Shown here one piece after another: positions 52,610 to 53,125 of a stretch of DNA of 64,000 bases. The notes beneath the pieces are model-generated. The model searched no databases. It saw nothing but the letters and a program-made list of their open reading frames with translations, and was not told the DNA's origin. Source of the stretch: Syntrophus gentianae (lineage in GTDB: Bacteria; Desulfobacterota; Syntrophia; Syntrophales; Syntrophaceae). The DNA is taken from NCBI RefSeq assembly GCF_900109885.1, contig NZ_FOBS01000008.1, positions 62,001 to 126,000 on the forward strand. Reading direction: 5' to 3'. A program made the position numbers and the translations under genes. The stretch's first letter is position 1; each line of letters opens with the position of its first letter.

Positions 52610-53125
52610 CTACCTGCCTTGACGATCATAGGGATACCAGTCACTGCTTCGAAGCGTACTGACTTTATAAATCAGGACTTCATTCTGAAAGGTATTAAAG
52701 ACAATCTTACGACCCAATCGGCCACCAACGTCCTCCGAGATCACTTTGATCCCGTTTTTTTTTAAAACTTTTCTTGCAATCTCAATGTTTTCATGAGCAA
52801 CCGTTTCCGACTCGAAAAGCTCTGCCGCTGCACCTCCGAAGATCTGCGATTGCAGGTTTTTCTCTTTTGCGCCTTCTGCAAGGAACATCTTGATCATGTA
52901 TGGAACTGCCACATTGCCATAAATTGCAGTCCCGCCTTCCGACTTCTCCCTGAAGGGATATAAGAAATTTGACATCCCGCCCCGCTTGCTTTCAGAATCC
53001 CAGAGTGCTACCACAACGGAGGAGCCGACAACCGTTGAGATCAGATAAGGCTCCCAGCTTAAAAATATGTAACCCGGTAAGAGAAAATATTCGCATGAAG
53101 GTTTTATGTCTTTTCCATCCGTCAT
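52610..53125 (-). CDS. CheD paralogue with substituted catalytic residues
   Basis: A 171-residue CheD-fold protein. Aligned by eye with the intact CheD at 54.9 kb, the catalytic Thr-Cys-His triad (T23, C29, H46 there) reads S30, S36 and N53 here: [13 protein letters not shown] for YALGSCIAVAIYD, and GGMSNFLYP for GGLLHYMLP. It is unlikely to be a glutamine deamidase. The fold elements, [11 protein letters not shown] and [23 protein letters not shown], are kept, so it may bind CheX/CheC or receptors without catalysis. The intact neighbour and tight operon spacing suggest a kept function. Confidence 0.85.

Follow-up and report, generated by a model that had tools for sequence, protein, structure and literature searches.

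A CheD paralogue without catalytic cysteine and histidine in a Syntrophus chemotaxis operon, probably kept as a non-enzymatic adaptor

In Bacillus subtilis, CheD binds the receptors and activates CheA, and CheC, strengthened by CheY-P, competes for CheD. The variant CheD-F102E keeps its deamidase activity yet behaves like a cheD null, so that binding outweighs catalysis in this organism, according to PMC3513319, which also names M101 and F102 as the CheC-contact residues of CheD. In Borrelia, as summarized in a review (PMC5318424), CheD acts with the CheX phosphatase and there is no CheC. The Halobacterium CheD is described in PMC3579733 as a hub with CheC, CheB and CheF proteins among its binding partners. 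A search of the open-licence literature found no published account of a CheD that has lost its catalytic residues, from which absence from print does not follow, and the excerpts of PMC2577667 and PMC2666748 hold nothing on such a protein. The CheD fold and the operon described here are known; the catalytically degenerate variant, referred to as CheD2, is new.

The window, a stretch of 64,000 nucleotides of Syntrophus gentianae DNA, carries on its minus strand an operon in the order cheR, cheD1, HDOD, cheY, cheX2, cheD2, cheB, cheA, cheY, cheX1. The genes were assigned by Pfam unless stated otherwise:

55360..56190, minus strand: cheR
54874..55356, minus strand: cheD1, CheD of 160 aa with T23-C29-H46 intact (Pfam and alignment)
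54029..54874, minus strand: HDOD-domain protein, between cheD1 and cheY
53562..53999, minus strand: cheY-like receiver
53147..53614, minus strand: cheX2, CheX family, directly upstream of cheD2, with E89 and N92 (E-x2-N) kept
52610..53125, minus strand: cheD2, CheD paralogue of 171 aa with degenerate catalytic site (S30, S36, N53) and the tail LRSSDWYPY at 158-166
51576..52607, minus strand: cheB, directly downstream of cheD2
49351..51573, minus strand: cheA
48875-49258, minus strand: second cheY, named from its translation and not by Pfam
48329..48799, minus strand: cheX1, second CheX-family gene, at the operon end

A search of the home genome identified two CheD matches, both within this operon, five CheX matches and seven matches to the MCP signalling domain. 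The same genome gave no CheC match, which speaks against CheC as a partner of CheD2. We also noticed that cheD1 and the HDOD gene adjoin with one base in common (54874), so that CheD and HDOD may be functional partners. CheD-HDOD fusions occur in two CheD2-bearing genomes (L204:598-2016 and L187:1324-2676, of 473 and 451 aa), and further CheD matches whose open frames span about 460-550 aa may be fusions of this kind as well.

The cheD2 product is a CheD-fold protein. Its residues 60-152 match Pfam CheD (PF03975) with 75.2 bits against a cut-off of 25, and its AlphaFold2 model (mean pLDDT 86.7, from an alignment of 64 rows) is closest to Thermotoga maritima CheD 2f9z_C, with TM-scores of 0.77/0.85 over 149 columns and a Foldseek E-value of 4.8e-14. 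The earlier note, made from the sequence of the window, was correct on coordinates, reading frame and the retention of the fold segments. The best NCBIfam match is PRK13487-type CheD (101.2 bits, below the cut-off of 223), and among relatives with named records the closest, 'Syntrophus sp. PtaU1.Bin005' (L052), has a CheD2 of 81% identity.

T23, C29 and H46 of CheD1, which correspond to the catalytic triad reported from structural work on T. maritima CheC-CheD, align with S30, S36 and N53 of CheD2. The Ser, Ser and Asn reported earlier are therefore present; the claim attached to them, that all three catalytic residues were lost, holds for Cys and His and probably not for Thr. Ser36 stands at the position of the deamidase Cys and Asn53 at that of the His, whereas Ser30 is also found in orthologues with intact Cys and His and is the normal residue of the subfamily (81 of 84 orthologues), so that by this alignment the number of catalytic residues lost is probably two and not three. 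The CheD2 proteins of two congeners also lack Cys and His (S/S/N in L032 and S/S/S in L038), so the loss is real and not due to chance or an isolated error; orthologues with both residues occur only further away.

Our preferred reading, to which we assign a probability of roughly 70%, is that CheD2 is a non-enzymatic CheD adaptor working beside an active CheD1. Because the nucleophile and the general base are gone, CheD2 is predicted to be unable to deamidate; it would keep the fold and presumably the surface for chemoreceptor helices and CheC/CheX-type phosphatases, while the deamidase activity would come from CheD1 of the same operon. On the model of B. subtilis, in which a binding-weak CheD is null-like and an inactive CheD could thus keep the main function, CheD2 may attach to receptors (or to a CheX) and adjust CheA activity or the CheY-P level without chemistry. 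The candidate partners are the receptors first, followed by CheX1/CheX2, CheB or CheD1, and the hub role of the Halobacterium CheD makes other partners plausible. Several points speak against this reading: no conserved MF corresponding to M101/F102 was found in the CheD2 alignment, the home genome gave no CheC match, and the clade has no neighbour gene in common throughout. The S-S-H group, the orthologues with Cys and the small number of Cys changes forced by strongly supported branches, all described below, count against it as well. The C-terminal tail motif D[WY]xPY, private to CheD2, is a putative docking element.

To place the protein among its relatives, a profile of 13 CheD2 sequences was used, which scores CheD2 at 234 bits or more and other CheD below 105 bits, and which finds CheD2 in 17 of the 155 genomes of the order. 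These matches and 80 loci of named genomes gave 84 non-redundant proteins, identical or same-core duplicates having been removed before counting; 10 of the 83 orthologues from outside the window, with an unrecognised N-terminal motif, are absent from one alignment (A2) and still included in the counts. A second sample was drawn by profile from 394 genomes of the phylum (completeness of at least 90% requested, CheD2 accepted at E <= 1e-40) and contains CheD2 in 34 of them. All 34 triads were examined, 30 of them new and four (SSN, SGN, SCQ, SNN) from the 84-row set. A tree of 117 rows, made of the 84 proteins, 23 further CheD2 and 10 outgroup CheD, puts the 107 CheD2 rows on one side of a branch with an SH-aLRT of 97, and on these sequences CheD2 is a distinct CheD branch of Desulfobacterota.

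The tail agrees with this. CheD2 proteins end in LRxxDWYPY (DWYPY at 162-166 in the window copy), and D[WY]xPY is present in 83 of 84 CheD2, none of 60 CheD1-type and none of 11 outgroup CheD, the first figure being partly a selection effect since the 84-row set came mainly from a scan with the tail motif among its patterns. Among CheD2 found by profile, the motif is present in all 17 of the order and in 27 of the 30 new members of the phylum sample, in one of the 27 behind an in-frame stop. It is equally constant in Cys-intact and Cys-less CheD2, and so marks the clade and not the loss.

The Cys and His positions are variable. The commonest triads among the 84 proteins are SSH (37), SCH (25), SCN (3), SGH (3), SSN (2) and SCQ (2), followed by SGN, SGS and RAH (2 each) and SSS, SNN, SSR, SGC, SGL and WCH (1 each). 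At the Cys position this amounts to Ser in 41, Cys in 31, Gly in 9, Ala in 2 and Asn in 1, so that Cys is absent in 53; Cys and His are both present in 26, and at least one of them is absent in 58. Given the 31 orthologues with Cys, part of the clade is probably still enzymatic. In the phylum sample, 17 of 34 CheD2 lack Cys, a figure in which the tail-less TCH protein of L236 counts as a Cys-bearing CheD2 although it serves as outgroup in the 117-row tree. L227 has two CheD, of which one, also TCH and tail-less, is likewise placed in the outgroup; it lies in tandem (970-1470) directly ahead of an SAH CheD2 (1474-1974), and the pair may represent the ancestral duplication. The 60 CheD1-type proteins carry TCH (50), TSH (5), VTH (4) or ACH (1), and Cys and His are invariant in the 41 with the highest profile scores. 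Outside the CheD2 set there are two further Cys-less CheD groups, of TSH (CheD1-type; L072, L089, L093, L101, L108) and VTH (L157, L158, L159, L161) proteins, with the motifs GTSLGL and GSTAAV, and two divergent CheD-like proteins (L045:4804-5301, L046:5144-5617) have Gly at the Cys position with His kept.

A tree of the 84 proteins, built without the three catalytic columns, needs 14 changes between Cys and non-Cys and 11 between His and non-His; only 3 of the Cys changes are required when strongly supported branches are considered by themselves. The 117-row tree needs 17 Cys changes, or 19 under a model of irreversible loss. These are quick trees from few columns and the exact number is soft. 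L100 (Ser) and L037 (Cys) are 84% identical, and a starred branch unites L089 (Ser) with its sister L072 (Cys); as judged from these trees, Cys was lost several times independently within the clade. The window CheD2 groups with L032 and L038 on a starred branch (99), and none of the three has Cys or His. The repeated loss among the relatives suggests that the CheD2 branch is kept for partner binding and not for catalysis. A wider proposal, that Desulfobacterota have a CheD class selected for a purely non-enzymatic role, with parallel losses of the active site, its own docking motif D[WY]xPY and a free-standing adaptor off the che operon in Desulfobacteraceae, appears to us evenly balanced.

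The gene cheD2 lies directly after cheX2, and the earlier note had suggested that the protein is perhaps paired with one CheX. Taken further, CheD2 could be a regulatory subunit devoted to the neighbouring CheX2 phosphatase, in the way that CheD serves CheX in Borrelia, a possibility that we consider doubtful. The order cheX2-cheD2-cheB recurs in 17 of the 84 loci, and the E and N of E-x2-N, presumably the catalytic motif, are kept in all 14 aligned CheX2 rows. However, the pairing is not specific. Of the 155 genomes in the order, 59 have CheX2 (at least 90 bits). They comprise 16 of the 17 that carry CheD2, the exception being G041, whose contig begins within cheD2, and 43 of the 138 that lack CheD2; in these 43, CheX2 is situated close to CheD1. 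CheX2 thus goes with the operon and not with CheD2. Moreover, at least 21 loci with a length of 15 kb or more showed no recognisable cheA/B/R/W/X or CheD1 around CheD2 in single-sequence searches, which distant homologues may escape. Twenty of these 21 che-less loci are SSH, and their neighbours, judged from translations, resemble transport and metabolic genes. In Desulfobacteraceae many cheD2 genes are separated from che genes, cheD2 often follows cheB in Desulfobacterales, and over the 84 loci no neighbour gene conserved throughout the clade was found.

CheX2-type proteins have in common an N-terminal EVFEK motif that was not observed in CheX1. A 516-aa frame in L072, considered as a CheD2 fusion that might name its partner, shows a CheD domain only by Pfam, and no natural CheD2 fusion was found, the CheD-HDOD fusions being of other CheD types.

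Another explanation, which we regard as unlikely, is that CheD2 holds CheD1 in check, either by occupying the deamidation sites of receptors or by pairing with CheD1. It has the same fold as CheD and is co-encoded with an intact CheD, a further CheD being present in all 20 CheD2 genomes checked (TCH in 19, YCH in G161), but CheD is not known as a dimer.

It seems a little less probable still that the chemistry is altered and not lost, with Ser36 replacing Cys as the nucleophile of a serine-type deamidase or esterase, at least in S-S-H members. Cys is most often replaced by Ser (41 of 53), and S-S-H is the commonest triad; as the largest Cys-less group, which keeps His, it could by its residues include an active serine hydrolase. 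In the genus of the window, however, His is also gone (Asn or Ser), elsewhere Gly, Ala or Asn at the nucleophile position leaves no Ser-His mechanism, and the Cys site is poorly conserved in CheD2, with an entropy rank of 86 of 175.

Recent decay, in which cheD2 would be a dying gene that simply lost its active site and is bound to vanish, is very improbable and largely refuted by dN/dS and by the loss shared with congeners: the Cys and His sites do vary freely among clade members, CheD2 has a scattered distribution in the order (17 of 155 genomes) and broken copies exist, but the open reading frames are full-length, tail and core motifs are nearly invariant, and dN/dS is 0.05-0.20 in pairs whose members are nearly all Cys-less. 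The broken copies are L220:1423-2016, with an in-frame stop ahead of the tail, and a short remnant at L112:4763-4942, whose locus also contains a full CheD2. Within the genus, dN/dS is 0.07-0.15 by NG86 and 0.09-0.20 by YN00, two of the three pairs having a nearly saturated dS. Close pairs across the clade give 0.05-0.16; one of them has no value, and one joins a Cys-bearing with a Ser-bearing protein. For CheD1 pairs the values are 0.02-0.13, with one NG86 estimate missing, and by these ranges the dead CheD2 copies are about as strongly constrained as CheD1. Cys and His in related strains, which the earlier note had named as the sign of decay, are absent from all three CheD2 of the genus. Its view of a pseudo-enzyme is well supported by the genus-wide loss, the recurrent loss in the clade, purifying selection and an intact CheD in the same genomes.

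Among named CheD branches the nearest to CheD2 is PRK13487-type CheD, from which it differs in falling under the equivalog cut-off and in having lost the catalytic residues. Compared with the CheD deamidase (PF03975; T. maritima 2F9Z and B. subtilis CheD), CheD2 has the same fold, core sequence and operon context, whereas its Cys and His are replaced and its D[WY]xPY tail is private. Homology-based naming would label such proteins receptor deamidases, yet half of the phylum sample lacks the Cys nucleophile. The Borrelia CheD-CheX pair resembles the operon in combining CheD with a CheX-type protein and in having no CheC, for which the home genome gave no match; Borrelia has one CheD, unlike the two found here, of which the dead one lies beside CheX2. 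In the B. subtilis CheC/CheD/CheY-P system (PMC3513319), the weight of binding over deamidation would explain why an inactive CheD can be kept, and repeated loss of the deamidase site next to an intact copy would lend that binding-first view independent support from evolution. The Syntrophus system differs in having five CheX matches instead of a CheC match and in that the inactivity is natural; if the wider proposal is true, the CheD2 lineages are natural separation-of-function mutants of CheD.
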